The notes under the pieces: generated by a model
Told to the model about the DNA's origin: nothing
What the model saw: only the letters and a program-made list of their open reading frames with translations
Databases searched by the model: none
Shown here: one piece after another, positions 24,897-61,366 of the stretch
How positions within the stretch are numbered: position 1 is the first letter of the stretch
How the letters are laid out: each line of letters starts with the position of its first letter
DNA from: Mycolicibacterium mucogenicum DSM 44124
GTDB taxonomy: Bacteria > Actinomycetota > Actinomycetes > Mycobacteriales > Mycobacteriaceae
Length of the DNA stretch: 64,000 bases
NCBI RefSeq assembly: GCF_005670685.2
Contig: NZ_CP062008.1
Coordinates: 3,906,001-3,970,000 of the forward strand
Direction: 5' to 3'
Program-made: the position numbers and the translations under genes

Positions 24897-24913
24897 CATC
24901 CGCTGAGCGGGAA
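24897..24913 (+). promoter_or_regulatory. Island operator-like motif, site A (mce / enoyl-CoA hydratase)
   Basis: CATCCGCTGAGCGGGAA, centred at 24905, belongs to the ten-site motif family. It is extended to a 25-bp imperfect dyad by outer CCGCAT and ATGCGG arms. It lies 78 bp from the hydratase ATG and 203 bp from yrbEA, in the 280-bp divergent region. ATTCCC (24981) and GGGAAT (25002) form a second inverted repeat further into the mce leader. Confidence 0.65.
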
Positions 24914-25107
24914 TGCGGCAGCTCACACCGCTGACCTCTCGGCTGAGGAAGGCGTAGATCCACTCCGAACGAAGCGGCCCATTCCCGAAATCCCGGTAGG
25001 AGGGAATCGCGATGGCGGGCCCCGAAGCGCGGCTGCCAATCTTCGTCGGTGGGACGTGTCCCGGGTCACATCGACCCGCAGGTCCCGGTAGAGAAACGGA
25101 GTACGTC

Positions 25108-25878
25108 ATGCCGCAGCGATCGTTCGCCGGTCCGTTGCAAGCGGTCGGAGGGCTGTTCGCCATGACGGCCGACGCAGCGAAATTTGCGTTCCGGCGGCCC
25201 GTGCAATGGCGCGAATTCCTTGATCAGTCTTGGTTTGTCGCGCGGGTGTCGCTGGCACCCACACTTCTTGTCGCGATCCCGTTCACCGTATTGGTGTCGT
25301 TCACTCTGAACATCTTGCTCCGCGAACTGGGTGCCGCCGATCTCTCGGGAGCGGGCGCCGCGTTCGGCGCTGTCACACAGGTCGGTCCCATGGTGACGGT
25401 GCTGATCGTGGCCGGCGCCGGCGCGACCGCTATGTGCGCCGATCTCGGATCGCGCACCATCCGGGAAGAGATCGACGCCATGGAGGTGCTCGGCATCAAT
25501 CCCGTGCAGCGGCTGGTGACCCCGCGCATGCTGGCCTCGGGACTCGTCGCACTGCTCCTCAACAGCCTTGTGGTCATCATCGGCATCCTCGGCGGATACC
25601 TGTTCTCGGTATTCGTGCAGGACGTCAATCCCGGCGCGTTCGCCGCCGGCATCACTCTGCTCACCGGTGTTCCCGAGGTCGTCATCTCTTGCGTCAAGGC
25701 GACGCTGTTCGGCCTCATCGCCGGTGTGGTGGCCTGCTACCGCGGACTCACCATCTCCGGTGGCGGCGCCAAAGCGGTCGGCAACGCCGTCAACGAGACC
25801 GTCGTGTACGCGTTCATGTCGCTGTTCGTCGTCAATGTGGTGGTCACCGCCATCGGCATCCAGATGACCACGCGATGA
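25108..25878 (+). CDS. yrbEA: Mce-associated permease YrbEA (YrbE4A-like)
   Basis: A 256-aa MlaE-type permease subunit with about five transmembrane helices, first gene of the mce operon. It would pair with YrbEB and an ATPase encoded elsewhere to power lipid or sterol import. Segments RRPVQWREFLDQSWFVARVSL and IREEIDAMEVLGINPVQRLVTPR (the EExDALxxMG-type coupling region) are very close to what I recall of YrbE4A from the cholesterol importer. ATG 25108 gives the family length and has GGAG 7 nt upstream. An in-frame ATG at 25012 with a strong AGGAGGG would add 32 residues. Confidence 0.92.
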   Translation: MPQRSFAGPLQAVGGLFAMTADAAKFAFRRPVQWREFLDQSWFVARVSLAPTLLVAIPFTVLVSFTLNILLRELGAADLSGAGAAFGAVTQVGPMVTVLIVAGAGATAMCADLGSRTIREEIDAMEVLGINPVQRLVTPRMLASGLVALLLNSLVVIIGILGGYLFSVFVQDVNPGAFAAGITLLTGVPEVVISCVKATLFGLIAGVVACYRGLTISGGGAKAVGNAVNETVVYAFMSLFVVNVVVTAIGIQMTTR

Positions 25879-26735
25879 CCCGCAGCACAGCGCCGCTTCG
25901 GTCCACGTACCCGCGGCTGACACGCGCCGTCCACACACCCGCGAAGATCACCGCCGACATCGGCGATCACATCTTGTTCTACGGTCGGGCGATTGCCGCG
26001 GTGCCCTATGCCGCCGCGCACTACCGACGCGAAGTGATCCGGCTCATTGCTGAAATCAGCATGGGCGCAGGCACGTTGGCGATGATCGGCGGCACCGTGG
26101 TCATCGTCGGATTTCTCACCCTCGCCACGGGCGGCGTCCTGGCGATCCAGGGGTACAGCTCGCTGGGCAACATCGGCATCGAAGCGCTTACCGGATTCCT
26201 GGCCGCATTCATCAACGTCCGAATCTCCGCACCGATTGTCGCCGGCATCGGCCTGGCGGCCACCTTCGGCGCAGGCGTCACCGCCCAGTTGGGCGCGATG
26301 CGGATCAACGAAGAGATCGATGCACTCGAGTCCATGGGCATCCGATCTGTCGAGTACCTTGTCAGCACCCGTATCGCGGCGGGAATGCTTGCGATCACGC
26401 CGCTGTACGCCATCGCGGTGATCCTCTCCTTCGTCGCAAGCCAATTCACCACCGTGGTGCTACTCGGACAGTCCGGCGGCCTGTACAACCACTATTTCGA
26501 CACGTTCCTCAACCCCATCGACCTGCTCTGGTCATTCCTGGAAGCAGTACTGATGGCCTTGGCAATCCTGCTGTTGCACACCTACTACGGCTTCTTCGCC
26601 AGCGGAGGCCCGGCCGGGGTAGGCGTGGCAGTCGGCAATGCCGTCCGCACCTCGCTGATCGTCGTCGTATCCATCACGCTGCTCATCTCGCTGGCCATCT
26701 ACGGGTCCAACGGCAACTTCAATCTCTCTGGCTAA
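25875..26735 (+). CDS. yrbEB: Mce-associated permease YrbEB (YrbE4B-like)
   Basis: A 286-aa second MlaE-type permease subunit, overlapping yrbEA by 4 bp. It has a hydrophilic N-terminus and five hydrophobic helices. GGVLAIQGYSSLGNIGIEALTGFLAAFINVRI and RINEEIDALESMGIRSVEYLVSTR are family signatures, and the C-terminal GNFNLSG is the same as in YrbE4B as I recall it. The similarity places this operon in the mce4 clade. The gap to mceA is 11 bp. Confidence 0.92.
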   Translation: MTRSTAPLRSTYPRLTRAVHTPAKITADIGDHILFYGRAIAAVPYAAAHYRREVIRLIAEISMGAGTLAMIGGTVVIVGFLTLATGGVLAIQGYSSLGNIGIEALTGFLAAFINVRISAPIVAGIGLAATFGAGVTAQLGAMRINEEIDALESMGIRSVEYLVSTRIAAGMLAITPLYAIAVILSFVASQFTTVVLLGQSGGLYNHYFDTFLNPIDLLWSFLEAVLMALAILLLHTYYGFFASGGPAGVGVAVGNAVRTSLIVVVSITLLISLAIYGSNGNFNLSG

Positions 26736-26746
26736 GCAGGCATCGA

Positions 26747-27934
26747 ATGTCACGTGACTCAGTACGTTTGCTCACCGGCTCTGCTGCGCTGGGCCTGGCC
26801 GCCGCGCTCGTCGTCGGAGCCGTTGTGTTGTTCCGAGGTGGCGCGACATCCACGGCATCCGTGACGGTGCTGTCCCCACGGGTGGGCCTGATCATGAACC
26901 CCGACGCCAAGGTGAAACTGCATGGCGCGCAGGTGGGCAAGGTAGCCGCCATCGACGATCTGCCAGACGGAAGCGCTGCCATCCGTCTGGCGATGAATCC
27001 TGACTACCTGCAACTGATTCCGGCGAACACCCGGGTGCAGATCGTGTCGAGCACGGTGTTCGGCGCAAAGTATGTCGACCTCCTCCCACCGGCGGAGCCA
27101 TCTGCTCAGCCGCTGCACGCGGGGCAGGTTCTCGACGCCGGCCACGTCACCGTCGAAATCAACACGGTCTTCGAGCATCTGGTGGACGTGCTGTCCCAGG
27201 TCCAGCCCGAGAAACTCAACGAAACGCTCGGCGCCATGGCGCAGGCGCTGGGCGGTCGCGGCGACAAGCTGGGGCTGACAATGGTCGATTTCGACGCCAT
27301 GCTCACCAAGATCGATCCCAGTCTTCCCAACATGAGCCAGGAAATCGCCACGGCTCCAAAGGTTCTCACCGCATACGCGGACGCCGGCCCCGATCTGATG
27401 AGCGCCGCACGCAGTGCGTCCCAGCTCAGCGACACCATCGTCGAGCGCCAGCAGGACCTCGACACGGTACTGCTGAGCGCCATCGGATTGGCAGACATCG
27501 GCAATGACGTTGTCGGCACCAACAGCAACGCGATCGTCGACACAATGCACGTGTTGGTGCCCACCACCAATCTGACCAATCAATACAACCAAGCGCTCAC
27601 CTGCGCCCTCAAGGGCATGGAGCCACTTGCCATGGGACCGCCGCAACCGCTGCCCGGAATCATGCTGCTGGACTCGTTCCTGCTGGGCACAGAACGCTAC
27701 CGCTACCCCGGCAATCTGCCGAAGGTCGCCGCGTCAGGCGGCCCCCAGTGCATGGGCCTGCCCAACGTGGGATTCGGGCAGCGGCCGCCGTTCGTGGTCA
27801 CCGACATCAACGCCAACCCGGCACAGTACGGAAATCAAGGGATCCTGTTGAACTCCGACGCACTCAAGCAAGCCCTGTTCGGCCCGCTCGACGGGCCGCC
27901 GCGTAACACCGCCCAGACAGGGCAACCAGGATGA
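26747..27934 (+). CDS. mceA: Mce family protein MceA
   Basis: A 395-aa envelope protein with an N-terminal signal anchor (about 9-30), an MlaD/Mce domain (about 35-120, ending AKYVDLLPP) and a helical second half. Six such proteins assemble a hydrophobic shuttle across the periplasm. The domain carries KVKLHGAQVGKVAAIDD and NTRVQIVSSTVFGAKYVDL. It is shorter than Mce4A because it lacks the long proline-rich tail. The end overlaps mceB by 4 bp. Confidence 0.92.
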   Translation: MSRDSVRLLTGSAALGLAAALVVGAVVLFRGGATSTASVTVLSPRVGLIMNPDAKVKLHGAQVGKVAAIDDLPDGSAAIRLAMNPDYLQLIPANTRVQIVSSTVFGAKYVDLLPPAEPSAQPLHAGQVLDAGHVTVEINTVFEHLVDVLSQVQPEKLNETLGAMAQALGGRGDKLGLTMVDFDAMLTKIDPSLPNMSQEIATAPKVLTAYADAGPDLMSAARSASQLSDTIVERQQDLDTVLLSAIGLADIGNDVVGTNSNAIVDTMHVLVPTTNLTNQYNQALTCALKGMEPLAMGPPQPLPGIMLLDSFLLGTERYRYPGNLPKVAASGGPQCMGLPNVGFGQRPPFVVTDINANPAQYGNQGILLNSDALKQALFGPLDGPPRNTAQTGQPG

Positions 27935-34241: not shown

Positions 34242-34254
34242 CATGAACGACGTT

Positions 34255-34285
34255 GGGGCCGGCACGATCAGGACGTGCCGGCCCC
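34255..34285. terminator. Intrinsic hairpin terminator after mceF
   Basis: GGGGCCGGCACG (34255-34266) and CGTGCCGGCCCC (34274-34285) form a perfect 12-bp stem with a 7-nt loop. It lies between the convergent mceF and 34304 genes and can serve both. There is no long U-tract, as is normal in mycobacteria. Confidence 0.75.
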
Positions 34286-35554: not shown

Positions 35555-35571
35555 CAACCGCTGGGCGGGAA
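35555..35571 (+). promoter_or_regulatory. Island operator-like motif, site C (Mce-associated genes)
   Basis: CAACCGCTGGGCGGGAA, centred at 35563, is 121 bp before the Mce-associated gene at 35684 and just after the preceding gene. It matches sites A and B at 13-14 of 17 positions. Confidence 0.55.
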
Positions 35572-35683: not shown

Positions 35684-36433
35684 ATGCGGTCACTCAGCCG
35701 CGCTGATACCGCGACACAGGCGAACGACCCAGCCACCGCCGCGGAAGACGGCCGGGCACAGCCTGTCGACCCGCGGCTGATCAACCAGGCGGAGGCCGAA
35801 GCACTCGCCGCCGAAGAACTTGCCGCAGCAGCGCGCGCACGAGCCGATGGACTTCGCGCGCGGGTAGCCGACTCTGCATCGGATCCCGCTGATGCCGAAG
35901 CCGGTACACCGCAGGAGCCGTCGACGGGGCGATGGCGGCGGTTGTGCCGCCCAAAGTTGAAGACGGTATTGGCCACAGTCGCCGTCCTGGCTAGCGTCGC
36001 AGCACTTGTGGCAACCGGCTACATGCTCCACTACCACCGTCAGTTCGACAGCGAGGTGCAGCGGAAGGCGGAATTCACTTCCGCCGCCTCGCAGGCGGTC
36101 GTCACGCTGATGTCGATCGACGGCACCAAGGCCGAGGACAACGTCCAGCAGATCCTCGCCAATTCCACCGGACCGTTTCGTGATGATTTCCAGGCCGATG
36201 CCAAGGATTTCGTCCAGGTCGCCCGCGAGTCCAAAGCGGCGACAAAGGCCACGGTGCGCAGCGCGGCCGTGGAATCGATGACGCCAGATTCTGCTGTGGT
36301 CCTCGTGACCGCCGCGACAACGGTGAGCAACACGGCGGGGACCAACCAACAACCACGCAACTGGCGCCTCAGTGTCACCATGATCAGAGACGGAGCGCAG
36401 CTCAAGATGTCGAAAGTCGAGTTCGTGCCATGA
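35684..36433 (+). CDS. Mce-associated membrane protein (Mas type)
   Basis: A 249-aa protein with a long charged cytoplasmic N-terminus including an Ala/Glu/Arg helix (INQAEAEALAAEELAAAARARADGLRA), one transmembrane helix (about 88-110, VLATVAVLASVAALVATGYML) and an external alpha+beta domain ending WRLSVTMIRDGAQLKMSKVEFVP. This is the standard Mce-associated protein architecture; such proteins stabilise Mce complexes. ATG 35684 has GGAGGT 6 nt upstream. It overlaps the second Mas gene by 4 bp. Confidence 0.88.
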   Translation: MRSLSRADTATQANDPATAAEDGRAQPVDPRLINQAEAEALAAEELAAAARARADGLRARVADSASDPADAEAGTPQEPSTGRWRRLCRPKLKTVLATVAVLASVAALVATGYMLHYHRQFDSEVQRKAEFTSAASQAVVTLMSIDGTKAEDNVQQILANSTGPFRDDFQADAKDFVQVARESKAATKATVRSAAVESMTPDSAVVLVTAATTVSNTAGTNQQPRNWRLSVTMIRDGAQLKMSKVEFVP

Positions 36434-37077
36434 CCACAGGAGCGGCAGCACTCACCGCCGACGACACCACTCCCGAGGACGTCGAAAGTGATCAGCCCGA
36501 CGAAGCATCCTCGGTCGCTGACGAGCAACACGTCGACGTATCGCGGGACCAAACCGCGTCAAACCCGCGCCGTTCGAAGCCACTGACCCGGCGGCTTACA
36601 GACCGGTGGCGGCCCATCGCCGTCACGAGCCTCGTGCTGGCGTGCGCCGGCACCGCAGGAGCGATGTACTTCACCACCTATCGCAGTGACCGCGCCAGCG
36701 CCGAGGCCGAAACCCAGGTTGCCAAAGCCGCATCCGAAGGTGCCGTGGCGTTACTGTCCTATGCGCCGGCAAGTTTGGATCACGACCTGGCCGACGCGCG
36801 CTCGCACCTCACCGGCGGGTTCCTGACGTACTACAGCCAGTTCGCCGACCAGTTCGTTGCGCCTGCCGCCAAACAGAAAGATATTCATGCCGTCGCATCG
36901 GTCGTCCGTGCCGCCACGATCGACGCCCACGCAGACAGCGCGCACGTCCTGATCTTCCTGAACCAAACCACCACCAGTCGTGAAAACCCCGAGCCGACAC
37001 AGTCGGCCAGCAGCGTGAACGTCGGGCTCACGAAGATTGGTGGCGTATGGCGGATTTCGTCATTTGATCCGATCTAG
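36430..37077 (+). CDS. Mce-associated membrane protein (Mas type), second copy
   Basis: A 215-aa paralogue of the preceding protein: acidic cytoplasmic N-terminus, one transmembrane helix (about 57-78, IAVTSLVLACAGTAGAMYFTTY) and an exported NTF2-like domain ending VNVGLTKIGGVWRISSFDPI. It is co-translated with the upstream gene (ATGA overlap). Pairs of Mas proteins normally accompany mce operons, which links this unit functionally to yrbE-mceF although three genes or terminator elements intervene. Confidence 0.88.
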   Translation: MTTGAAALTADDTTPEDVESDQPDEASSVADEQHVDVSRDQTASNPRRSKPLTRRLTDRWRPIAVTSLVLACAGTAGAMYFTTYRSDRASAEAETQVAKAASEGAVALLSYAPASLDHDLADARSHLTGGFLTYYSQFADQFVAPAAKQKDIHAVASVVRAATIDAHADSAHVLIFLNQTTTSRENPEPTQSASSVNVGLTKIGGVWRISSFDPI

Positions 37078-37167: not shown

Positions 37168-38091
37168 CTAGCGACGTAGCAACTCGCCCAGCGCGCGGCT
37201 TGCCTGCCGACGGGCGGCATGCGCGATATCGAACATGGGCATCGTCATGAAACCATGTATGCCGCCCGCGAAGAACAACTGCTGAACGGTAGCGCCGGCA
37301 TCCCGCAGTGCATCGGCATACGACAGGCCCTCATCTTTGAGCGGATCGCAACCGGCGACCACCACGACGGCCGGAGGCAATCCTTCGAGACGACCGCACA
37401 GCGGGGATGCGTACGGGTGGCTGCGATCACTTTGCTCGGGAACGTATTGATCCCAATACCATTGCAGCGCTTCACGTGGGTTGTAGTAGCCCGCTCCGAA
37501 CCGACGGTAGGAGTCGGTGTCGAACTCCGCGGCGATCACCGGGTACAGCAGCATCTGCGCGGCGATGGACAGCTCGCCGCGATCACGCGCCATCAGTGCG
37601 ACCACGGCAGCGAGATTTCCGCCCGCGCTGTCGCCTCCTATCGCCACTCGTTGGACATCGGCGCCGAGGTCACCCGCGTGTTCGGACACCCAGCGGGTCA
37701 CCGCATACACGTCCTCGGCAGCCGTAGGCCACCGGTGCTCTGGAGCCAATCGGTATGCGACCGAAACGATCACCGCCGGAATGAGATTCGCCAGATTCCT
37801 GCACAGTCCGTCGTGGCTGTCCAGATCGCAGAAGACGAAGCCGCCACCGTGCGCGTACACCAGAACCGGCAGCGGTCCGGACGCTTCCGGCCGGTAGATC
37901 CGGACATCCACATGACCACCGTCGACCGACACCCGGTCATCCCAGACGACGGCGACCGATTCGGGCTGCGGGTTCGGCACGAACCGCGCGCGAATCGCGG
38001 CCCTGGCCTCGGCGCCGGTCATCGTGGATACCTTGGGAAATCCCCCATCGAGAGCCTCGATCAGGTCCGCCACTTGTGGATCGAGGCTCAT
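37168..38091 (-). CDS. Alpha/beta hydrolase, HSL/LipF-type esterase
   Basis: A 307-aa hormone-sensitive-lipase-family esterase. The oxyanion motif HGGGFVF, nucleophile motif GDSAGG, catalytic Asp region GCDPLKDEG and His in GGIHGF are all present in order. It starts at ATG 38091, overlapping the stop of the iclR gene by 4 bp, so both form one operon. In an import/catabolic setting it may release an ester-linked acyl group from the imported compound. A second HSL-type gene lies at 62762. Confidence 0.9.
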   Translation of the reverse strand: MSLDPQVADLIEALDGGFPKVSTMTGAEARAAIRARFVPNPQPESVAVVWDDRVSVDGGHVDVRIYRPEASGPLPVLVYAHGGGFVFCDLDSHDGLCRNLANLIPAVIVSVAYRLAPEHRWPTAAEDVYAVTRWVSEHAGDLGADVQRVAIGGDSAGGNLAAVVALMARDRGELSIAAQMLLYPVIAAEFDTDSYRRFGAGYYNPREALQWYWDQYVPEQSDRSHPYASPLCGRLEGLPPAVVVVAGCDPLKDEGLSYADALRDAGATVQQLFFAGGIHGFMTMPMFDIAHAARRQASRALGELLRR

Positions 38092-38927
38092 GCGGGCCGC
38101 ATCGCAGACGCGCGCAGCTCCGCGTTGTGCGCGGTAAGACCGCCCCGCAGAGGACGCACGAGCGTGGGCGTGGCATGCTCGCGGACGCTTTCGGCGTTGC
38201 GCCATACCGCCGTGGCGGTCATCCGCACGGGCGTCACCAACCGCCGGTCGAACGTCATCTTTGACATGGGGCCACACACGGATACCGCGGCCACGGCTTC
38301 GCCCACGGGTCCGATCGGTGCTGCGACGCAGCCGAACCCGCGAAGAGACTCTTCCCTCTCAGTGGCCACACCGTGGGCGCGGACCCTGTCCAGTTCGGCA
38401 GCGAGCTGGGCACTCGTGGCGACCGAGTACCGGGTTCGTCGTTTCGCAAGGTCGACGTCAGCAGTGTCCTGATAGGCCAGGATCGCCTTGCCGACAGCGG
38501 TGCACTGAGCCGGTTGACGCCCGCCTACGCGAGTCGGGATTGCGGCCATCACCTCATCGCCGATCTTCTCCAGGTATACGACGTCAGAGCCGTCCAATAT
38601 GGCGAGATGCACCACCAACCCGGTGGCCCGGTGCAGATCACGCAGGAGCGGAATGGCAGCCCGGTGGATTCGGTCCTGTTGCAGCGCAAGGTTTCCCAAC
38701 TCCACGAGGCGCACGCCGAGCTCGTAATCGAACCCGTCACGGCTCAACCAGCGCAGGTTCACCAGGCGCTCGAGCATGCGATGCGCGGACGAGCGGGGCA
38801 GGCCGGTGCGACGAACGATCTGCGCCAAGGTGAGACTTCCCGACCCATCGAACGCGTCCAACACCAGGGAAACCCGATCAATCACGTTGCTAGGCGTCTC
38901 GGCAGCCACATCGACAGTCAGCGTCAT
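38088..38927 (-). CDS. IclR family transcriptional regulator, copy 1
   Basis: A 279-aa regulator with an N-terminal winged helix (about 15-75: VLDAFDGSGSLTLAQIVRRTGLPRSSAHRMLERLVNLRWL) and a GAF-like effector domain (GLVVHLAILDGSDVVYLEKIGDE, QPAQCTAVGKAILA). It is very close to the second IclR at 48208: for example RTGLPRSS.HRMLERLV and YELG.RLVELG are shared. IclR proteins often activate or repress aromatic and steroid-like catabolism. It shares a promoter/operator block with the paralogue and has island motif J upstream. Confidence 0.93.
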   Translation of the reverse strand: MTLTVDVAAETPSNVIDRVSLVLDAFDGSGSLTLAQIVRRTGLPRSSAHRMLERLVNLRWLSRDGFDYELGVRLVELGNLALQQDRIHRAAIPLLRDLHRATGLVVHLAILDGSDVVYLEKIGDEVMAAIPTRVGGRQPAQCTAVGKAILAYQDTADVDLAKRRTRYSVATSAQLAAELDRVRAHGVATEREESLRGFGCVAAPIGPVGEAVAAVSVCGPMSKMTFDRRLVTPVRMTATAVWRNAESVREHATPTLVRPLRGGLTAHNAELRASAMRPA

Positions 38928-38953
38928 CGAAACCCTCCAGGCCCGTCACTCGA

Positions 38954-39006
38954 ATAGTCAAAATAGGAATAGTGAGTTTTTTACCATATGCTGTGGTCGC
39001 TGTCAC
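38954..39006 (-). promoter_or_regulatory. Promoter/operator block shared by the two iclR genes, copy 1
   Basis: On the minus strand: GTGACA (39006-39001) as -35, a 17-bp spacer, TAAAAA (38983-38978) as -10. The 34-bp element 38954-38987 begins ATGGTAAAAA and ends TTTTGACTAT, arms that are 8/10 inverted-complementary. The same elements with identical spacing occur before the second iclR gene (48136-48188). This suggests autoregulation or cross-regulation by the two proteins. Confidence 0.65.
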
Positions 39007-39047
39007 ATACCGATCTGTGGCCGCCGGCGACCTCGCCGCCGCGGCTG

Positions 39048-39064
39048 GTTCCGCTCACCGGTCG
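39048..39064 (-). promoter_or_regulatory. Island operator-like motif, site J
   Basis: Minus strand CGACCGGTGAGCGGAAC, centred at 39056. Its core CCGGTGAGCGGAA is identical to site F. It is 82 bp before the exported-protein ATG at 39138 and 129 bp from the iclR start. Confidence 0.6.
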
Positions 39065-39137
39065 GCCACGTATCGCCGGGTTCCCTGAACTCGGTAGAGC
39101 TGAATCGGAAGAACACATCAACGACCTCGGGAGCCCA

Positions 39138-39518
39138 ATGCGCAAGCAACTGCTGCTGGCCATCGCCGCCGGCGCGCTCACCCTTGGCCCGCCGCCCGTG
39201 GCGACCGCTGACACCCCTGCCTCGTGCGAGGACGCCTACTGCACGCCCGGCATCTCCCCTGGGGTGGTGTTGGGAGCCCCCTGTGGCGACACGTCGCATT
39301 TCGTTTTCGGCACCACGCCATGGGGCCGACTCGTGTTCTGCGGCTCTCCGCGGCGATATGAACCGCGCTATTTTCGCTCGCCACCGATGCGGGGTATCAA
39401 GGTCGAGGGCTCACCCTGCCCTCAATTCGTTAACGACGTCGCCCAGGCACCGGACGGGTTGTTCTTGAGCTGCGTTGCTGTCGACGGGGCCACCCGCTGG
39501 GTGCAGGGCGATCTTTGA
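39138..39518 (+). CDS. Small exported cysteine-containing protein
   Basis: A 126-aa protein starting at ATG 39138, with GGGAG upstream. MRKQLLLAIAAGALTLGPPPVATAD is a clear signal peptide with cleavage after ATA. The mature part has six cysteines (ASCEDAYCTPG, GAPCGDTSHF, VFCGSPRRY, SPCPQFVND, LSCVAVDG), probably forming disulfides. I do not recognise the family. Its promoter carries the island motif, which links it to the catabolic regulon. It could be a cell-envelope binding protein. Confidence 0.72.
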   Translation: MRKQLLLAIAAGALTLGPPPVATADTPASCEDAYCTPGISPGVVLGAPCGDTSHFVFGTTPWGRLVFCGSPRRYEPRYFRSPPMRGIKVEGSPCPQFVNDVAQAPDGLFLSCVAVDGATRWVQGDL

Positions 39519-41735: not shown

Positions 41736-42572
41736 TTATCTTTGCGTGGCGCCCGCGTCAACGGGCAACGTGATCGCGGTGACGTAGCGAGCCTCGTCGG
41801 AGGCCAGGAACAGTGCCGCATTTGCGACGTCGATCGCTTCAACCCACGGGATGGACAGGAGGTTCATCCGTCGCGCGGCTTCGGCGAACTCGTCCCGCGT
41901 GGGAGGTCGGTCCAGGTCCGGACGGAAAGCAGTCCGGACGACGTCGTTCTGGATGAGCGGGGTATCGACGTTGGTGGGCAGAATGCAATTCACGCGGACG
42001 GCGTGCGGCGCCAGGTCGTGCGCGAAGCTGCGCATCAGTCCGATCACCCCGTGCTTGGCGGCGGTGTAGTGGCCTACCCCGACAAGGCCGCGCACGCCGG
42101 CGATTGAGCTCGTCAGCACCATGGCGCCGCCACCGCGTGCAATCAGGTGTTCGGCGCTGGCCCTGCAGGTGTGCCACACTCCGGTCAGATTGACGTCGAG
42201 CATGGTGCGCCAGGCGTTTTCACCGAGATCGACGGTCATCGCACGGGACGTGATTCCGGCCGTCGCGCAGACGATGTCGAGTCCACCGAACACATCGGCG
42301 CCCCGGTCGGTCGCGGCCTGCATCCCCTTGAGGTCGCGGACGTCGACGATCTCGGTGTGGATCCGGCCGCCGGCCTGTGCGACCAGCCTGGCCGTCTCCT
42401 CGAGGTCGGCCGGAGTGCTGAAGGGAACCGAGACGGTCTCGACAGGCCCGCACAGGTCGAGCCCGATGATGTCGGCGCCCTCCTGGGCGAACCGCACCGC
42501 TTGGGCGCGGCCGATTCCGCGCGCAGCACCCGTGATGACTGCGACTTTGCCTGCGAGCCGCAGCGCACTCAT
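41736..42572 (-). CDS. Mycofactocin-coupled SDR family oxidoreductase
   Basis: A 278-aa SDR with TGAARGIGRAQAVRFAQEGADIIGLDLC, followed by the extra segment VPFSTPADLEETARLVAQAGGRIHTEIVDVRDL. That insertion between the second strand and the ADVRD motif is the mark of SDRs with non-exchangeable NAD that rely on mycofactocin. Catalytic YTAAK and SS of LTSSIAG are present. ATG 42572 has GGGGAGAAG upstream. It leads the four-gene unit and is divergent from the KshB-like gene, with two island motifs between. Confidence 0.88.
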   Translation of the reverse strand: MSALRLAGKVAVITGAARGIGRAQAVRFAQEGADIIGLDLCGPVETVSVPFSTPADLEETARLVAQAGGRIHTEIVDVRDLKGMQAATDRGADVFGGLDIVCATAGITSRAMTVDLGENAWRTMLDVNLTGVWHTCRASAEHLIARGGGAMVLTSSIAGVRGLVGVGHYTAAKHGVIGLMRSFAHDLAPHAVRVNCILPTNVDTPLIQNDVVRTAFRPDLDRPPTRDEFAEAARRMNLLSIPWVEAIDVANAALFLASDEARYVTAITLPVDAGATQR

Positions 42573-42688: not shown

Positions 42689-42705
42689 TTCCCGGTGATC
42701 GGAAA
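42689..42705 (+). promoter_or_regulatory. Island operator-like motif, site G
   Basis: TTCCCGGTGATCGGAAA, centred at 42697; it differs from site F at a single base. It lies in the 204-bp divergent region between the mycofactocin-type SDR and the KshB-like gene, 28 bp from site E. Confidence 0.65.
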
Positions 42706-42716: not shown

Positions 42717-42733
42717 ATCCCGCTCATCGGAGA
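42717..42733 (-). promoter_or_regulatory. Island operator-like motif, site E
   Basis: Minus strand TCTCCGATGAGCGGGAT, centred at 42725. It is 52 bp before ATG 42777 of the KshB-like gene. The same 50-52 bp spacing is seen at four other leaderless-looking starts in the island, which supports ATG 42777 as the start. Confidence 0.6.
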
Positions 42734-42776: not shown

Positions 42777-43856
42777 ATGAACGATGTCGAAGCCGGCACC
42801 GAAATCGTCAGCGCAGGCCGAGGTGTATTGCTAGCGGTGACCGATGTCGTTGAAGAGAGTCCCGACGCTCGGTCATTGGTGTTCACGGTCCCTGAACAGC
42901 TGCGCGACCGCTTCACCTACCGTCCAGGGCAGTTTCTGACGCTGCGCATCCCGAGCGATCAGACCGGCTCGGTGGCCCGGTGCTACTCGTTGGCGAGTTC
43001 CCCGCACACCGATTCCGAACTGAAGGTCACGATCAAGCGGACTGTGGGCGGATACGGGTCGAACTGGTTGTGCGACAACGTTTCTGCTGGCGAAACCATC
43101 GAAGTGCTACCGCCGGCCGGAGTCTTCACACCGTCCTCGCTCGACACCGACTTTCTGTTGTGGGCCGCCGGAAGCGGTATCACCCCTGTCATGTCGATCC
43201 TCAAATCAGCGATGGCATCCGGTTCCGGACGAGTGGTGCTGTGCTACGCCAACCGTGACGAGCGTTCGGTGATCTTCGCGGCTGAGCTCCGCGAACTGGC
43301 TGCGCGTTACGCCGGTCGCTTGACGGTATTGCACTGGTTGGAATCGGTGCAGGGGTTGCCGACTCGCGCGCAGCTGACCGGATTTGCGCGCACCGTCTTT
43401 TCCGGGTCCGCGACCTTCGAATCGTTCATCTGCGGTCCTGCCGCGTTCATGTCGGTCGTCAAGGAGGCCCTGAGCGAAGCCGGGCTGCCACGTGAGCGCA
43501 TCCATCTCGAGGTGTTCCAGTCCCTCTCGAGCGACCCGTTTGCCAATGAGATGAGTTGCGCAGCAGATCATTCCGATGGCGGAGACGCTGCAACGGTACG
43601 GATCGACCTTGACGGCGCGAGCCACCGATTGCGATGGCCGCGTCGCGCAACACTGGTCGACACGATGATCGCGGCAGACCTCGACGTGCCCTACTCGTGC
43701 CGGGAAGGCCAGTGCGGATCGTGCGCGGCGACCGTGCTCGGTGGCCAAGTCAACATGGCAGCCTCCGAAGTACTGCAAGCAGAGGACCTCGCCGACGGTC
43801 TGATCTTGGCCTGCCAGGCAACACCAGTATCAGACGAACTGCACATCAAGTTTTAA
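42777..43856 (+). CDS. KshB-like ferredoxin reductase with C-terminal [2Fe-2S] domain
   Basis: A 359-aa protein with the KshB layout: FAD domain (RPGQFLTLRIPSDQTGSVARCYSLASSP), NAD domain (AAGSGITPVMSILKSAM, CYANRDERSVIF, FICGPAAFMS) and a C-terminal plant-type ferredoxin (PYSCREGQCGSCAATVLGG, ILACQ). It strongly resembles the reductase of 3-ketosteroid 9alpha-hydroxylase. No Rieske oxygenase (KshA) is in the window, so its electron acceptor is unknown. ATG 42777 is preferred; GTG 42744 with GGAGAG upstream would add 11 residues. Confidence 0.9.
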   Translation: MNDVEAGTEIVSAGRGVLLAVTDVVEESPDARSLVFTVPEQLRDRFTYRPGQFLTLRIPSDQTGSVARCYSLASSPHTDSELKVTIKRTVGGYGSNWLCDNVSAGETIEVLPPAGVFTPSSLDTDFLLWAAGSGITPVMSILKSAMASGSGRVVLCYANRDERSVIFAAELRELAARYAGRLTVLHWLESVQGLPTRAQLTGFARTVFSGSATFESFICGPAAFMSVVKEALSEAGLPRERIHLEVFQSLSSDPFANEMSCAADHSDGGDAATVRIDLDGASHRLRWPRRATLVDTMIAADLDVPYSCREGQCGSCAATVLGGQVNMAASEVLQAEDLADGLILACQATPVSDELHIKF

Positions 43857-43878: not shown

Positions 43879-43895
43879 TTTCCGCTCACCGGGAA
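43879..43895 (-). promoter_or_regulatory. Island operator-like motif, site F
   Basis: Minus strand TTCCCGGTGAGCGGAAA, centred at 43887 in the 108-bp gap before the HsaA-like gene (78 bp from its ATG). It is one of the closest matches to the consensus. Confidence 0.65.
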
Positions 43896-47542: not shown

Positions 47543-47977
47543 CTACATCTGCACGAGGTCGAACGGATAGGTCAATGTGCCCGCGGGCGCTCCGTCGCAG
47601 CCGGTGGCGAACGATGATGACAGTGTGCCGGACATGGTGGTCGCATCCCACGAATAGGTATCCCGGGTCGGTATCACCGGGCCGTAATAGACATCGCCGC
47701 AACGCAATCCATCCGGCACATCAATGGTGAGCGTCAGCCGTCCGTCGTGAAGATGCGCGTCGCCCTGGTAGGGAAAGGCCCTCGCCACCGGTTGTGGAAT
47801 CGCCTGAACGTGAACGCAGTCGCCCTGACAACTCGACAGCGCCCATAGCCAGGTGTGAAAGTCATGCCGGCCGGAGATTCTGACTTCGAAGTTCCCGTGG
47901 CGGATATCCGCGTGCGCCAGCGGCATCGCCGTCCATGCGGCGGCGACCAACGCCATGGCCGAGATGGTTGATTTCAT
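47543..47977 (-). CDS. Small exported protein of unknown function
   Basis: A 144-aa protein with signal peptide MKSTISAMALVAAAWTAMPLAHAD. The mature part has four cysteines (SSCQGDCVHV, LRCGDVYYG, TGCDGAP) and predicted beta strands (NFEVRISGRHDFHTWLWALSSC, GRLTLTIDVPDG, YSWDATTMSGTLSSSF). ATG 47977 is preferred, with GGCAGGT upstream, over a longer frame. It resembles other mycobacterial exported proteins with DxWxW-type strands, but I cannot name the family. It is divergent from the second iclR gene and shares motif B. Confidence 0.7.
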   Translation of the reverse strand: MKSTISAMALVAAAWTAMPLAHADIRHGNFEVRISGRHDFHTWLWALSSCQGDCVHVQAIPQPVARAFPYQGDAHLHDGRLTLTIDVPDGLRCGDVYYGPVIPTRDTYSWDATTMSGTLSSSFATGCDGAPAGTLTYPFDLVQM

Positions 47978-48094: not shown

Positions 48095-48111
48095 TATCCG
48101 CTGAGCGGGCA
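48095..48111 (+). promoter_or_regulatory. Island operator-like motif, site B
   Basis: TATCCGCTGAGCGGGCA, centred at 48103, between the divergent exported-protein gene and iclR copy 2. It shares TCCGCTGAGCGGG with site A. It lies about 33 bp before the predicted -35 of iclR copy 2. Confidence 0.62.
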
Positions 48112-48135
48112 TCCTTCGAACTCAAACCACAGTGT

Positions 48136-48188
48136 GTGACAGCGCGCACACTGTATGGTAAAAATAGTCATAGTCCTTTTTTGACTAT
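48136..48188 (+). promoter_or_regulatory. Promoter/operator block shared by the two iclR genes, copy 2
   Basis: GTGACA (48136-48141), 17-bp spacer, TAAAAA (48159-48164), then the 34-bp element 48155-48188 from ATGGTAAAAA to TTTTGACTAT. An inner perfect repeat ATAGTC (48170-48175) and GACTAT (48183-48188) lies over the predicted transcript start, a position fitting repression. Copy 1 is at 38954-39006. Confidence 0.65.
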
Positions 48189-48207
48189 CGACCTCTGGGA
48201 GCGCCTC

Positions 48208-49026
48208 ATGACAACGACCGTCGTGAACCGCGGCGAAACGCCGATCGCCGCCATTGACCGGATGTCCCTGGTGCTGGATGCCTTCGACGGCAAGACACCG
48301 CTGACGATGGTGCAGATCGTGCACCGCACCGGTCTTCCGCGTTCATCTGTGCACCGCATGCTCGAGCGACTTGTGCACCTGCGCTGGCTCCGGCGGGAAG
48401 GTTTCGACTACGAACTCGGGACCCGCTTGGTCGAGCTGGGGTCGTTGGCCCTGCATCAGGGCCGCATTCACCAGGCCGCGCTGCCCCTCCTGCGCAGTCT
48501 GCAGCGGGCCACGGGCTTGGTAGTACATCTGGCTGTCCTCGACGGCTCCGATGTCATCTGTCTTGAGAGAATCGGCGATCACCTGACTGATCTCGTCCAC
48601 ACCTCGGTCGGCAATCGCGTACCGGCGCACTGTACTGCGCTGGGAAAGGCCATCCTTGCCGAAAGCGACTGCACGGAAGTCGATTTCAGCAGGCGCCAAA
48701 CTCGTTTCTCCATTACCGGCGCCCAGCAATTGGCGGTCGAACTGGCGAAGACTCGCGAACGTGGCGTGGCGTTCGACCGCGAGGAATCACTACTGGGGAT
48801 CGGCTGCGTGGCGGCAGCCATCGGACTGCCCGGTCAGCCGCTCGCGGCGGTATCCGTGTGCGGGCCGATCGACCGGATCACGCTGGATCAGCGGCTGGCC
48901 GCGCCGGTGCGGATCACCGCGTCCCGCATCTGGCGCAACATGGAATTCGGCCCGCACCAAGGTGGTTCGCGGTCGCTGCAGGCAGTTCACCGCCGGTCGT
49001 CGGTGAGCCGCTGGGCGACTCCGTAG
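48208..49026 (+). CDS. IclR family transcriptional regulator, copy 2
   Basis: A 272-aa paralogue of the regulator at 38088. The winged helix reads MSLVLDAFDGKTPLTMVQIVHRTGLPRSSVHRMLERLVHLRWL and the effector domain GLVVHLAVLDGSDVICLERIGDHL and VPAHCTALGKAILAE. ATG 48208 is the first start after the predicted promoter. Long near-identical stretches and a shared promoter block suggest a duplication within the island. The 3' end overlaps the convergent OYE-type gene by 40 bp. One of the two regulators is the best candidate for recognising the island motif, but this is inference. Confidence 0.93.
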   Translation: MTTTVVNRGETPIAAIDRMSLVLDAFDGKTPLTMVQIVHRTGLPRSSVHRMLERLVHLRWLRREGFDYELGTRLVELGSLALHQGRIHQAALPLLRSLQRATGLVVHLAVLDGSDVICLERIGDHLTDLVHTSVGNRVPAHCTALGKAILAESDCTEVDFSRRQTRFSITGAQQLAVELAKTRERGVAFDREESLLGIGCVAAAIGLPGQPLAAVSVCGPIDRITLDQRLAAPVRITASRIWRNMEFGPHQGGSRSLQAVHRRSSVSRWATP

Positions 49027-50198
49027 CGTTGGTCGGGGTCGAGGACGCAATGGGTGCGCCCGAACACGGTCACCATGCACTTGTTGTTGTGGGTGCAACG
49101 GCTGCGTGAATCCGGCTCCGTGATCATGGTGTTCACCCGGTCGGGTTCACGAAGCAGCGCCCGCCCCATGGCGAAGAAATCGAACCCTTCCCGCATGCCG
49201 GTCTCGATGTGTTCACGGTCGGTAATGCCGCCCAACAGAACGAGTTTGGTGTTCTTCATCAGCGGGACGAATTGCCGAGCGGCGTCGAGCATGTACAAGT
49301 CCCGGTAGGCGTACCTGCCCATCGCTTGCTTGCCGAACAGCCGGATGGCGGGGCGCAGCGCGGTGGGCATCACTTTCGAAAACTCTCTGGCCGGCACATC
49401 GCCACGGAACAGATACATCGGTTTGTAGACCGAGGAACCTTGGGTCAGCTCGATGGCATCAAGCGTGGCGTCGGCATCGAGGAGTTGTGCCGTGCGCAGT
49501 GCTTCGTCGATCCAGATGCTGCCGGGTAAACCGTCATCCATGTCCAGCTTGGCGATCACCGCGATCTGGCCGCCGACAACTGTCCGGACGTGTTGAGCGA
49601 TCTCACGAACCAGTCGAGACCGGTTGTCGATCGACCCACCGTACCCATCTGTACGGCGGTTGATGAGCGGACTCAGGAACGAGCTGGGCAGGTACAGGTG
49701 GCCGAAATGAAGCTCGACCGCGTCGAAGCCGGCATCCACCGCGATGCGGGCGGCTGCCCCGAACTGCCGGATGACGGTCTGGATTTCCGCGACGCTGATC
49801 GCGCGGCAGTACGCGAAAGACGTCGGGTTGATGAACCTGCTCGGTGCCATGGCGGTCACACCGGTGAGCTTTTTCGGCGCCACAACTCCGGCATGGCCAA
49901 GTTGCGCCGAGATCGCTGCGCCTGCTTCGTGAACTGCGTCTGTCAGCCGACGCAGGCCGGGCAGGTTTGCCGCACTCATGACGATCTGCCCCGGGGCACT
50001 AGCAGCTTGCGGCGAAACGCAGCAGTAGGCGACGGTGGTCATGCCCACCCCGCCGGCGGCGAAGGCGCGGTGAAAGGCGATCAGTTCGTCCGTGACCGCG
50101 CCGTCGGGCGAGCGCCCCTCCGAGGTCGCCGCTTTGATGATTCGATTCCGCAGCACCACCGGTCCGAGCTGCGCAGGTTCAAAGGGGTTGTCGCCCAT
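48987..50198 (-). CDS. NADH:flavin oxidoreductase (old yellow enzyme family)
   Basis: A 403-aa FMN-dependent TIM-barrel reductase. Visible signatures are FEPAQLGPVVLRNRIIKAATSEG, FDAVELHFGHLYLPSSFLSPLINRRTDGYGGSIDNRSRLVREI and the FMN end loop DFFAMGRALLREPD. The CTHNNKCMVTVFGRTHC segment recalls the 4Fe-4S cysteine region of larger relatives. ATG 50198 is preferred over ATG 50222 because motif H then sits exactly 50 bp upstream, mirrored with the divergent gene at 50298. The enzyme may reduce an activated C=C in the ring system. Confidence 0.86.
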   Translation of the reverse strand: MGDNPFEPAQLGPVVLRNRIIKAATSEGRSPDGAVTDELIAFHRAFAAGGVGMTTVAYCCVSPQAASAPGQIVMSAANLPGLRRLTDAVHEAGAAISAQLGHAGVVAPKKLTGVTAMAPSRFINPTSFAYCRAISVAEIQTVIRQFGAAARIAVDAGFDAVELHFGHLYLPSSFLSPLINRRTDGYGGSIDNRSRLVREIAQHVRTVVGGQIAVIAKLDMDDGLPGSIWIDEALRTAQLLDADATLDAIELTQGSSVYKPMYLFRGDVPAREFSKVMPTALRPAIRLFGKQAMGRYAYRDLYMLDAARQFVPLMKNTKLVLLGGITDREHIETGMREGFDFFAMGRALLREPDRVNTMITEPDSRSRCTHNNKCMVTVFGRTHCVLDPDQRYGVAQRLTDDRR

Positions 50199-50239
50199 GG
50201 GATCACCATTGCCGCCCATCACCGGGGAGCAAAGATCCG

Positions 50240-50256
50240 TTCCCGGTAACCGGGAA
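50240..50256. promoter_or_regulatory. Island operator-like motif, site H (perfect palindrome)
   Basis: TTCCCGGTAACCGGGAA is a perfect odd palindrome centred at 50248. It is exactly midway between the divergent starts: 50 bp from ATG 50298 and 50 bp from ATG 50198. It is the most symmetrical site of the family. Confidence 0.72.
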
Positions 50257-51287: not shown

Positions 51288-51295
51288 CGGGGCCG

Positions 51296-54102: not shown

Positions 54103-54145
54103 GCAATCGAGTATCGAAGGGACCGCCCTTTCGCCGCCGCTGCTT

Positions 54146-54162
54146 TGACCTCTGAGCGGGAT
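54146..54162 (+). promoter_or_regulatory. Island operator-like motif, site D
   Basis: TGACCTCTGAGCGGGAT, centred at 54154. It is exactly 52 bp from both divergent start codons (54102 and 54206). TACGTT (54193-54198) and GATACT (54115-54110, minus) are the -10 candidates, each 7 nt from its start codon. Confidence 0.6.
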
Positions 54163-54205
54163 ACGATCCTGCGAGCAACTCGGTGCGCTACATACGTTTC
54201 ACCGC

Positions 54206-55792: not shown

Positions 55793-55805
55793 AGGAACAC
55801 AACAC

Positions 55806-56912: not shown

Positions 56913-56928
56913 TTCGCAAAGGACGAAT

Positions 56929-59126: not shown

Positions 59127-60280
59127 CGCCGACCCTGAGACGTCTGGTGCCGCCGGCGAGCAGCTCGAACCCAGCTGCTGACGCGTTGCGCGGCCAGGTC
59201 CGGGCGTTCCTCGCCGAACAACTGGCTGTGGGCGCCTTCACGCCGTCGGTCGACGCCTGGTTGTCCGGCTGGGACGAGACCTTCACCCGTTCGCTGGCAC
59301 GACAAGGCTGGTTGGGTATGACAGTTCCCGAACACTATGGCGGGCACGGCCGTTCGTTTCACGACCGCTTCGTCGTCACCGAGGAACTACTGGCCGCCGG
59401 GGCACCGGTGGCCGCCCATTGGATCGCCGACCGCCAGATCGTGCCGTCGCTCCTCAAGTACGGCACCGAAGAACAGAAGCACGAGTACCTGCCCCGCATC
59501 GTCCGTGGTGAGTGCTTCTTCGGCATCGGAATGAGCGAGCCCGACTCAGGATCGGATCTCGCGAGCGTGCGCACGCGAGCAGTCCGTGCCGACGGAGGCT
59601 GGGCGATCACCGGGACCAAGGTATGGACCTCGGGGGCGCACCGCGCCCACGCGTTCATCGTCTTGGCCCGCACCGCACCGGTGGACTCGGCACATCGGCA
59701 CGCGGGGCTCAGCCAGTTCATCGTCGACTTCGCCGCCGAGGGCGTGGACGTTCGGCCCATCATCTCCATGAACGGTGGGCACCACTTCAATGAGGTGATT
59801 CTCGATGGGGTGTTCGTGCCCGACTCCCGGGTCTTCGGAGAAATCGGGCAGGGTTGGAGCCAGGTGACCTCCGAGTTGAGCTTCGAGAGAAGTGGCCCTG
59901 AACGGTTCCTCTCGACGTTTCCACTCCTGGGCTTCGCACTCGAACAGGCTGCCCCACAAGATGTTTCGTGTGATGTCGAGATGGGCCGATTGGTGGCACG
60001 TATCGCCGGGCTGCATCACACATCGATGGCGGTGGCAGACGCCCTGCAACGCGGCGAGGCCGCCGATGTCTCCGCAGCCGTGGTCAAGGTCCTCGGCACC
60101 ACCGTCGAGGGCGATATCGCCGACTACGCCGATCTGCGCACCCGTGATGAGAGCAGGGTCGACTCGTCGTGGGCCGATCTGGTGTCCCACGCGGTCGACC
60201 AGCGTCCCGGATTCACCCTGCGCGGCGGAACCAACGAGGTACTGCGCGGCGTCATTGCGCGGGGATTGGGATTGCGATGA
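59123..60280 (+). CDS. Acyl-CoA dehydrogenase, large chain of a probable alpha2beta2 pair
   Basis: A 385-aa acyl-CoA dehydrogenase: GMTVPEHYGGHGRS, FFGIGMSEPDSGSDLASVRTRA, INGxK-like ITGTKVWTSGAH, and the C-terminal RGGTNEVLRGVIARGLGLR with the usual Glu. I chose ATG 59123, which overlaps the hydratase stop, over ATG 59111. It is followed immediately by a shorter dehydrogenase gene. Adjacent large and small FadE genes form obligate heterotetramers in steroid side-chain oxidation (ChsE1-ChsE2 type), suggesting the same here. Confidence 0.88.
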   Translation: MTPTLRRLVPPASSSNPAADALRGQVRAFLAEQLAVGAFTPSVDAWLSGWDETFTRSLARQGWLGMTVPEHYGGHGRSFHDRFVVTEELLAAGAPVAAHWIADRQIVPSLLKYGTEEQKHEYLPRIVRGECFFGIGMSEPDSGSDLASVRTRAVRADGGWAITGTKVWTSGAHRAHAFIVLARTAPVDSAHRHAGLSQFIVDFAAEGVDVRPIISMNGGHHFNEVILDGVFVPDSRVFGEIGQGWSQVTSELSFERSGPERFLSTFPLLGFALEQAAPQDVSCDVEMGRLVARIAGLHHTSMAVADALQRGEAADVSAAVVKVLGTTVEGDIADYADLRTRDESRVDSSWADLVSHAVDQRPGFTLRGGTNEVLRGVIARGLGLR

Positions 60281-61338
60281 ACGCAACAGGATCGATGACA
60301 AGCGCGCCGACAGTCGATCGCGATCTGGTCGACATGATGGACGCCGTCTTCGCCGACCACCGACTGTCCCACGATCCTGGGCCGGCCGAGGCACGAATCG
60401 ACTGTGACCGCGCATTGTGGCAACGGCTCGATGAGCTCGGGCTGGTGCGGCTGACCGGTTCGGAACAATCCGGCGGCAGCGGCGCGAGCTGGCGCGAATC
60501 GGCTGAATTGCTCACCGCCGCAGTGCGGCACGGAGTACGGCTGCCGTTGGCCGAGCATGATCTCTTGGCATGCTGGCTGCTGGAGGCCGTCGGCCACGAG
60601 GTCGATGACGCGCTCCGCACGATCCACGTGATGCCGCAACCCGATGCACCTCGGGCGCCGACGCCCTGGGCCGGCTCCGCCGACCGGATCGTCACCGTGT
60701 GGCGGACCGGCGACGGCTATCGTGTCGCCGATGTCGACGCCACGGAAATCACGATCGCCCCTGGACGCAACCTGATCGGCGAACCGCGCGACACCGTGAG
60801 AGTCGATGCGGCCGGGTGGCCCGGACAGGCGGTAGCGCCCGAGTTGGTCACCGAACTCGAGCGCAAGGCTGCCCTGGTTCGAGCCATTCAGGTTTGTGCC
60901 GCACTGGATTGCGCGATCGCGGCCTCGGTAGAGCACGTGATGTCGCGCATCCAGTTCGGCCGTCCCCTCGCCAAGTTCCAGGCGATCCAGAACCTGATCG
61001 CGGATGCCGCCGCCGAGGCGGCGGTTGCGCGCTCGGCTACCGAAGCGGCACTGAACACCGCACTCGAAACAGGATGGCTGACAGACCATCTCGACTTCCG
61101 GATCGCAGTCGCACGGTCCTGCGCTGGGCATGCGGCGTCGGCCGTGACACGTAATGCCCACCAGGTGCACGGTGCGATCGGTACGACACGCGAACACCGC
61201 CTGCACGAATGGACCCGCGCAGCCCTGGCGTGGCGCTCGGAGAACGGTTCTGTGCACTTCTGGGACCGGAAGGTCGCCGCCGCAGCGGCTGCAGCAGGCC
61301 GCACCGGCGTGTGGGCGTTGATCACTGGCACCGGGTAG
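60277..61338 (+). CDS. Acyl-CoA dehydrogenase, small chain of a probable alpha2beta2 pair
   Basis: A 353-aa acyl-CoA dehydrogenase-like subunit. The N-terminal half is reduced (VRLTGSEQSGGSGASWRESAELLTAAVRHG) and lacks a clear FAD-binding TEP segment. The C-terminal helical domain is well kept: IQFGRPLAKFQAIQNLIADAAAEAAVARSATEAAL and HQVHGAIGTTREHRLHEWTRAALAW. This asymmetry is what one partner of a heterotetramer shows. ATG 60277 overlaps the stop of the large chain by 4 bp. It is the last gene of the ligase-led unit. Confidence 0.86.
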   Translation: MNATGSMTSAPTVDRDLVDMMDAVFADHRLSHDPGPAEARIDCDRALWQRLDELGLVRLTGSEQSGGSGASWRESAELLTAAVRHGVRLPLAEHDLLACWLLEAVGHEVDDALRTIHVMPQPDAPRAPTPWAGSADRIVTVWRTGDGYRVADVDATEITIAPGRNLIGEPRDTVRVDAAGWPGQAVAPELVTELERKAALVRAIQVCAALDCAIAASVEHVMSRIQFGRPLAKFQAIQNLIADAAAEAAVARSATEAALNTALETGWLTDHLDFRIAVARSCAGHAASAVTRNAHQVHGAIGTTREHRLHEWTRAALAWRSENGSVHFWDRKVAAAAAAAGRTGVWALITGTG

Positions 61339-61349
61339 CTTTCGGGATT

Positions 61350-61366
61350 ATTCCGGTGACCGGTCA
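61350..61366 (+). promoter_or_regulatory. Island operator-like motif, site I (weakest)
   Basis: ATTCCGGTGACCGGTCA, centred at 61358, is 51 bp before ATG 61409. It keeps the CCGGTGACCGG core but has weaker outer arms. Its spacing from the start codon equals that of sites D, E and H, which supports it. Confidence 0.5.

Follow-up and report, generated by a model that had tools for sequence, protein, structure and literature searches.

What controls the mce import operon and the steroid-type catabolic genes around it in Mycolicibacterium mucogenicum DSM 44124 is the question raised by a 64,000-nucleotide stretch of its 6.1-Mb genome (G000:C1:3906001-3970000, hereafter the window, whose first letter is position 1). 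A preliminary description of this DNA had proposed that ten intergenic copies of a 17-bp palindrome, upstream of the mce operon, the Mce-associated genes, both iclR genes and almost every catabolic unit, place import and catabolism in a single regulon. Comparison of the window with 75 loci, each surrounding an HsaA-like relative from a named record, and with 118 genomes of the genus for the genus-wide counts, indicates that this GC-rich sequence (the GC palindrome) is a real, conserved operator with a regulon. One regulon over mce and catabolism is retained, whereas the iclR genes appear to be under a second, AT-rich palindrome. In our view, the GC palindrome is probably an IclR operator from which import and catabolism are activated, and the AT-rich palindrome a PadR operator from which iclR is repressed.

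A conserved GC palindrome and the promoters it faces

All ten 17-mers are present in the window at the positions given for them, sites F and G differ by a single base when F is reverse-complemented, and site H, claimed as a perfect palindrome, pairs at eight of eight positions. The consensus originally printed for them fared worse, since at up to three mismatches it recovers only F, G and H and so describes the set poorly (six strand-matches in the window against 0.87 expected, and 0 of 100 shuffles reaching six). It was discarded as too narrow, and the odd palindrome [T/C][T/G][C/T]CCG[G/C]T[G/C]A[C/G]CGG[G/A][A/C]A is a better form of the motif. With a matrix built from all ten 17-mers, the sites take ten of the eleven best places in the window, the remaining one being coding (5662), although this ranking is in-sample. 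When each is left out in turn, F ranks 1, G 2, B 5, A 6, H 7, I 7, E 11, D 12, C 13 and J 16.

The core YCCGNTNANCGGR occurs at 49 places in the genome, against 19 for the backward-read control. Six lie in the 36.5-kb stretch 24897..61366, where 0.29 are expected at the genome density; a paralogous cluster (2.277-2.287 Mb) holds another three, and 40 are outside the clusters. The latter were rejected as regulon members, 33 being coding and seven intergenic, with none judged to precede a steroid-type operon; one of the seven precedes an SDR gene (flanking proteins judged by eye). Matches outside the clusters being mostly coding, an equal density in unrelated intergenic DNA was not found.

Within the 75 loci, the ten-site matrix gives 118 matches of at least 14 bits in 117,603 intergenic positions and 30 in 1,337,960 coding positions (ratio 45), 73 against 13 at 16 bits or more (ratio 64), and 32 against 0 at 18 bits or more, so that the proposed density check finds intergenic DNA 45 to 64 times richer. 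At 16 bits, 60 column-permuted matrices yield a mean of 0.7 and a maximum of 21 intergenic matches, against the 73 real ones. A motif-free dyad count in the same intergenic DNA places CCG-N5-CGG 8th of 1,088, with CCC-N7-GGG, which is nested with it, 7th and TCC-N8-GGA 9th.

The sites are also kept in orthologous loci. A site of at least 12 bits stands upstream of 68 of the 79 orthologues of the HsaA-like gene (site F), 37 of 39 of the reductase (site E), 12 of 17 of mce, 21 of 43 of the old-yellow-type and 22 of 66 of the Dabb gene (both at site H), and the single orthologue of 35684 (site C). Genes internal to operons rarely have one (hsaC-like 0/77, dehydrogenase 7/69, 51296 2/47, 37168 1/50, 40921 1/17). 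For site I (gene 61409) there was no testable promoter among the 75 loci, and no site before two orthologues in L321 and L324. Upstream of the HsaA-like gene, where position was counted in 73 loci (all but L092 and L126), 66 have a site within 140 bp; in 53 of them its start falls between -81 and -86, in 12 between -57 and -59, and in one at -120.

When the HsaA-like and Dabb promoters are aligned on the site, a second conserved block appears at a constant distance. We followed 136 sites of the 75 loci towards gene starts up to 130 bp away, which gave 176 distinct directions in 65 loci; neither of the two matrices used, the second of which was trained on sites picked with the first, had been built with any -10 information. 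An nANNNT hexamer lies 28-30 bp past the site in 129 of the 176 directions (other three-offset windows: mean 14.4, maximum 48), and TANNNT in 48 (mean 0.5, maximum 4). A site of at least 9.5 bits with a phased hexamer towards mce is found in 15 of the 17 mce promoters. In the window itself, the hexamer accompanies nine of the 11 intergenic island sites of at least 6 bits (10 of 13 over the whole window) and one of 17 coding matches. Assuming a start point about seven bases past the hexamer, this 28-30 bp spacing would centre the palindrome near -50, the position of an activator.

A chance pattern of GC-rich DNA could account for the weak leave-one-out scores of C, D and J; for the set as a whole it is refuted, as intergenic enrichment, dyad rank, core density, co-occurrence with a regulator (see below), the position of the HsaA-like site and phasing all oppose it, and we give it practically no credence.

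The sites in the window are as follows; window scores from the second matrix are not fully independent of the first.

24897..24913, minus strand: site A, 16.7 bits, CACATT 30 bp beyond the site, facing the enoyl-CoA hydratase gene 23973-24827.
24990..25006, plus strand: degenerate GC palindrome, absent from the original ten, 9.9 bits, CAATCT at 30, facing the mce operon (yrbEA 25108).
35555..35571, plus strand: site C, weak, 9.2 bits, TAGCGT at 28, facing 35684-37077.
39048..39064, no strand: site J, putative and of doubtful function, 15.0 bits, no phased -10 on either side.
42689..42705, minus strand: site G, 23.3 bits, TACCGT at 30, facing a minus-strand SDR run starting at 42572.
42717..42733, plus strand: site E, 14.5 bits, CAGACT at 29, facing the reductase gene 42777-43856 (KshB-like by domains).
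43879..43895, plus strand: site F, 23.5 bits, GACCAT at 30, facing the operon from 43965 (hsaA-like, hsaC-like, 4(5alpha)-dehydrogenase).
48095..48111, minus strand: site B, 16.1 bits, minus-side TAACTT at 28, no phased hexamer towards iclR2, facing 47543-47977.
50240..50256, no strand: site H, 22.0 bits, TAGCCT at 29 and AATGGT at 29, facing both 50298 (plus) and the old-yellow-type gene (minus).
54146..54162, no strand: site D, 11.7 bits, TACGTT at 30 and GATACT at 30, facing 54206 (plus) and the FMO-type monooxygenase gene (minus).
61350..61366, plus strand: site I, putative, 18.1 bits, lacking a phased -10 on both sides.

Because of the direction of the phased hexamers, several sites are reassigned to the genes that they face. 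The earlier placement upstream of catabolic operons stands, and that upstream of mce stands through the copy at 24990, site A having no phased hexamer towards mce. It does not stand for the iclR genes: site B, ascribed to iclR2, faces the minus-strand gene 47543-47977, site J, ascribed to iclR1, is unphased, and a GC site precedes only four of 69 iclR1-type and one of two iclR2-type promoters. Control of the iclR genes by the GC palindrome was therefore rejected. Site J overlaps a weak open reading frame call (38988-39518), and is probably intergenic, because the relatives of that frame are only 123-126 residues long; plain lists of open reading frames seem to misplace its start. At H, the predicted start point would be the A of the ATG, making the transcript leaderless, and the start of the old-yellow-type gene (50198-50222) may likewise be 50198, leaderless.

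By Pfam and PDB searches the island encodes the mce operon, acyl-CoA enzymes, two IclR proteins, an HsaA-like monooxygenase (PDB 2or0, 2.5e-164; 3afe, 1.4e-90), an HsaC/BphC-like dioxygenase (2zi8, 1.2e-87) and a relative of 3-ketosteroid-Delta4-5alpha-dehydrogenase (4at0, 5.5e-219), besides the KshB-like reductase, the FMO-type monooxygenase and the old-yellow-type enzyme; 2rfq is also among the ring-A/B steroid enzyme matches. These relatives of ring-A/B enzymes indicate that the island is steroid-type. It continues past the window, where two further GC sites (L316 3455 and 6133) each have TANNNT at 30. At its left edge, 19271-21549 holds a DUF222/HNH protein and an IS-type integrase, and 23202-23771 a short piece of a nitroreductase, possible traces of insertion.

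An AT-rich palindrome before iclR and the PadR gene

The strongest dyads of the intergenic DNA of the 75 loci belong to the second palindrome, ATATnnCTAnTAGnnATAT, just before iclR. It occurs exactly once in 42 of the 118 genus genomes, in every case within 90 bp of the iclR match, and is absent from the other 76 (control 0). The corresponding features of the window are:

38088..38927, minus strand: iclR1, IclR-family regulator (Pfam PF01614, PF09339).
38953..38973, minus strand: AT-rich box, proposed PadR operator, 16.5 bits, the best AT-matrix match of the window, just upstream of iclR1.
48154..48189, plus strand: AT-rich box of two overlapping matches (48154, 48169), 12.0 and 10.3 bits, the second and third best of the window, upstream of iclR2.
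48208..49026, plus strand: iclR2, IclR-family regulator (Pfam).

Both products have the IclR_C and HTH_IclR domains and are 65% identical across 246 residues. The best AT match elsewhere in the window scores 1.3 bits, and the scores of 16.5 and 12.0 are reached in one and two of 100 resampled windows, respectively (here and below, resamplings are first-order Markov rather than exact shuffles); the two boxes are degenerate, but lie in the expected place.

The AT box tracks a PadR gene, which we first met in a second genus. Orthologues of iclR2 of at least 57% identity are present in 63 of the 118 genomes, and PadR (E ≤ 1e-60) in 62 of these 63, whereas only G043 and G076 have it among the other 55; an in-frame stop interrupts four of these PadR matches, besides that of G043. 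The PadR gene of the island's own cluster lies at genome positions 3976943-3977596, about 7 kb past the end of the window (Pfam PadR for the query). A paralogous third cluster of the same genome (G000:C1:2268746-2287200; L031, L032) has its own IclR (72% identical to iclR1), PadR (2268746-2269372), HsaA-like protein (90% identical), AT box and three phased GC sites. Since the iclR promoters carry a different, AT-rich palindrome that tracks PadR, a two-tier system is suggested.

Loci with only one of the two regulators keep one box each, and it is on this basis that we assign the AT box to PadR and the GC palindrome to IclR. G087, which has IclR but lacks PadR at E ≤ 1e-10, and a second IclR cluster in G109, also without PadR, have GC sites, including at the iclR promoter, and no AT box. 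Conversely, the PadR-like loci of G030, G067 and G090 (PadR 43-45% identical), whose genomes have no IclR above 38% at E ≤ 1e-12, show their top AT match of 20 kb in the padR promoter (13.4, 12.6 and 13.4 bits; next best 4.4, 3.2 and 4.7), scores that 0, 2 and 0 of 200 resamplings attain, respectively, and have no intergenic GC site of at least 14 bits. In another family, G203 has an 18.3-bit AT box in its padR promoter. The AT box is thus ascribed to PadR.

Two further observations concern these promoters. In alignments made by eye, the iclR promoters of the 75 loci and window positions 48130-48165 share a conserved TGTGACA-N4..6-CACA just upstream of the -10 region, which we take to resemble a Crp-type site. 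In G317 (L294 13154-13215), a GC site and an AT box are adjacent before a ribBA-type gene (DHBP synthase and GTP cyclohydrolase II), so that AT boxes in G317 are not confined to iclR.

Proposed assignment of IclR and PadR, and the proposed circuit

The proposal that an IclR protein binds the GC palindrome is supported as likely by co-occurrence. In 70 genus genomes with an HsaA-like protein of at least 77% identity (G016, G022, G069 and G078, whose best copy is only about 59% identical, are left out, and the best copy was used where a genome has two), a site of at least 12 bits lies within 320 bp upstream of the hsaA-like gene in 60 of the 62 with IclR (E ≤ 1e-40) and in one of the eight without (Fisher 2.3e-7, ignoring relatedness). 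Of the IclR-less genomes, G058, G076 and G097 retain a degraded copy at -82 or -83. In the protein tree, the eight IclR-less copies fall in five places as drawn (G112; G098; G101; G011; and G097 with G058, G030 and G076), several forks being weak, and four changes are counted for them, relative to the other labelled rows only. The GC palindrome would then be the operator of IclR-family proteins.

Were the GC palindrome bound instead by a third, unlinked regulator whose presence alongside the cluster is incidental, the sites that G030 keeps without IclR would be explained. We regard this as improbable, since no regulator other than IclR (present in 69) figures among the most common gene families of the 75 loci, and the core outside the clusters is mostly coding.

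From the computed sites, their phasing, their conservation and their co-occurrence with the two regulators, we infer the following circuit, in which the pairing of proteins with sites, activation, repression and the ligand are all read from sequence. An IclR dimer would bind around position -50, leaving 28-30 bp to the -10 hexamer, and activate the steroid-type catabolic operons and the mce importer, as well as padR through weaker sites, which would close the loop. The iclR genes would be controlled by the AT-rich palindrome over their predicted start point, where PadR of the same cluster would repress them until a ligand, probably steroid-derived, arrives.

Many IclR-family proteins repress, and IclR could bind the GC sites in that role. 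A repressor is also what the proposal made for kshA1 and kshA2 speaks of (PMC8228715). However, repressors seldom sit as this site does, ahead of the entire core promoter and at a single helical phase, and a PadR repressor above an IclR repressor would invert the response, so that we consider this unlikely, if less so than the other alternatives. In a swapped arrangement, PadR would bind the GC palindrome and IclR the AT palindrome, each regulating its own gene. The AT box before iclR and the weak GC-type sites before padR (at least 11 bits in seven of 20 promoters, more by eye, and stronger in G173 and G137) match such autoregulation, and G043 combines PadR and a 23-bit GC site with only distant IclRs. 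On the other hand, G087 has IclR and GC sites without PadR, the PadR-like loci lacking a close IclR keep the AT box and no GC site, G076, with PadR but no IclR, retains a degraded site at the hsaA-like gene, and the GC motif agrees with the published IclR consensus at its core. The swap therefore seems to us rather unlikely.

Besides the padR promoters and G043, several observations weigh against IclR on the GC palindrome and PadR on the AT box. G018 and G109 have IclR and no 12-bit site at the hsaA-like gene tested, and G030 has two GC sites and no IclR, its gene order suggesting that the dehydrogenase and iclR were lost; a strict one-to-one pairing of IclR and motif, broken by G030 and G043, was abandoned. 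The hsaA-like copy of G018 and the second copies of G004, G024, G053 and G093 carry a variant half-operator, GCCCCGCTCATCGAGAC, of 5.6 bits at -86 to -88, and are perhaps a paralogue under other regulation. Some directions assigned in the window are poorly conserved, with a site before one of 10 orthologues of hydratase 23973 (site A, minus side), one of 25 of SDR 42572 (site G, minus side), and, for site D, one of 34 of monooxygenase 54030 and one of 27 of ligase 54206. On the PadR side, the promoters of the relatives in L349 and L352 lack an AT box, in L350 the box comes after padR, in L325 it lies inside a called open reading frame, and in L326 two of 200 resamplings match its score. Finally, the IclRs of R. 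opacus plasmids (52-53%) were dropped as further examples, neither box being present at their own promoters.

Other genera and known systems

The same design is found in other genera. In three genomes of the second genus (G336, G173, G137), iclR is preceded by an AT box. GC sites stand there upstream of kshA in G336, of genes for monooxygenases and FAD enzymes in G336 and G173, and of padR in G173 and G137, though not every promoter type was found in each. On plasmid pRHL1 of Rhodococcus jostii RHA1, IclR (54%) and PadR (48-50%) genes lie 3.6 kb apart with a 17.8-bit AT box before iclR; six of the eight GC matches of at least 12 bits are intergenic, and each of these is accompanied on at least one side by a phased hexamer, which in five cases faces a called gene.

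The regulation of actinobacterial steroid catabolism has been described mostly through KstR and KstR2, and KstR also controls an mce importer, mce4. The circuit proposed here shares with them the control of steroid catabolic genes, whereas KstR and KstR2 belong to the TetR family of repressors and have different operators. VanR of Corynebacterium glutamicum and similar PadR-family repressors bind an AT-rich inverted repeat over the promoter; the AT box is alike in this, but its target would be another regulator gene. Mce3R of M. tuberculosis is a TetR-type repressor, and we know of no IclR and PadR pair in its system. It resembles the present case in that one regulator covers an mce operon together with lipid-type genes close by (PMC2277422). 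For KstR and KstR2, the operators are quoted as TNNAACGTGTTNNA and AAGCAAGNNCTTGCTT (PMC8228715), and the dissimilarity claimed in the preliminary description is borne out: by eye, none of the ten 17-mers has the TNNAACNNGTTNNA or AAGCAAGNNCTTGCTT form, the window not having been scanned for other KstR sites.

There is also a likeness to the group-1 operators of IclR proteins, given as GKTYCRYW3-4RYGRAMC or WTTYCRYW3RYGRAAW in the survey of Suvorova and Gelfand (2021, PMC8222616), which includes the aromatic-catabolic GenR operator ATTCC-N7-GGAAT. Shared are the 17-bp odd palindrome, the YCR-N5-YGR core, the local catabolic regulon and an IclR gene in the cluster. By eye, K at position 2, M at 16 and the 5-bp spacing of YCR and YGR agree with the group-1 form, whereas the centre is S rather than W, and positions 7 and 11 are often not Y/R. 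In contrast to the aromatic-catabolic regulators, the targets here are steroid and mce genes, and iclR itself appears to be under another operator.

Three papers seem to touch this circuit. In R. ruber, kshA1 and kshA2 lack KstR motifs, and a palindrome is found close to their promoters; androstenedione raises kshA2 22,438-fold, and the authors write that other, unidentified regulators must act on both genes (PMC8228715). The legend of a steroid panel lists kstD, kshA, hyd, hsaC, iclR and padR (PMC6498646), and quasi-palindromes are described before kstD2 (PMC5348764). We infer that these belong to the same system. A literature search, with most subscription papers outside its reach, found no description of the operator, nor of IclR and PadR acting as a pair on steroid or mce genes. 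Within that reach, the claim of novelty holds for this operator, and is narrowed by the palindrome and non-KstR regulator already noted for R. ruber kshA1 and kshA2 (PMC8228715).

To a broader proposal we give even chances: that the two-tier PadR-over-IclR switch is a second regulon for steroid import and catabolism in mycobacteria and rhodococci, independent of KstR and KstR2, with promoters phased at -50 and often leaderless, and that it contains the missing regulator of the androstenedione-induced kshA2-type genes. The single-motif picture becomes a proposed circuit of two operators and two regulators. For the question of the kshA1 and kshA2 regulator, the analysis supplies a candidate operator with its promoter geometry, a list of targets and two candidate proteins, in a field, actinobacterial steroid catabolism, that is relevant to steroid-drug production and to mycobacterial biology.

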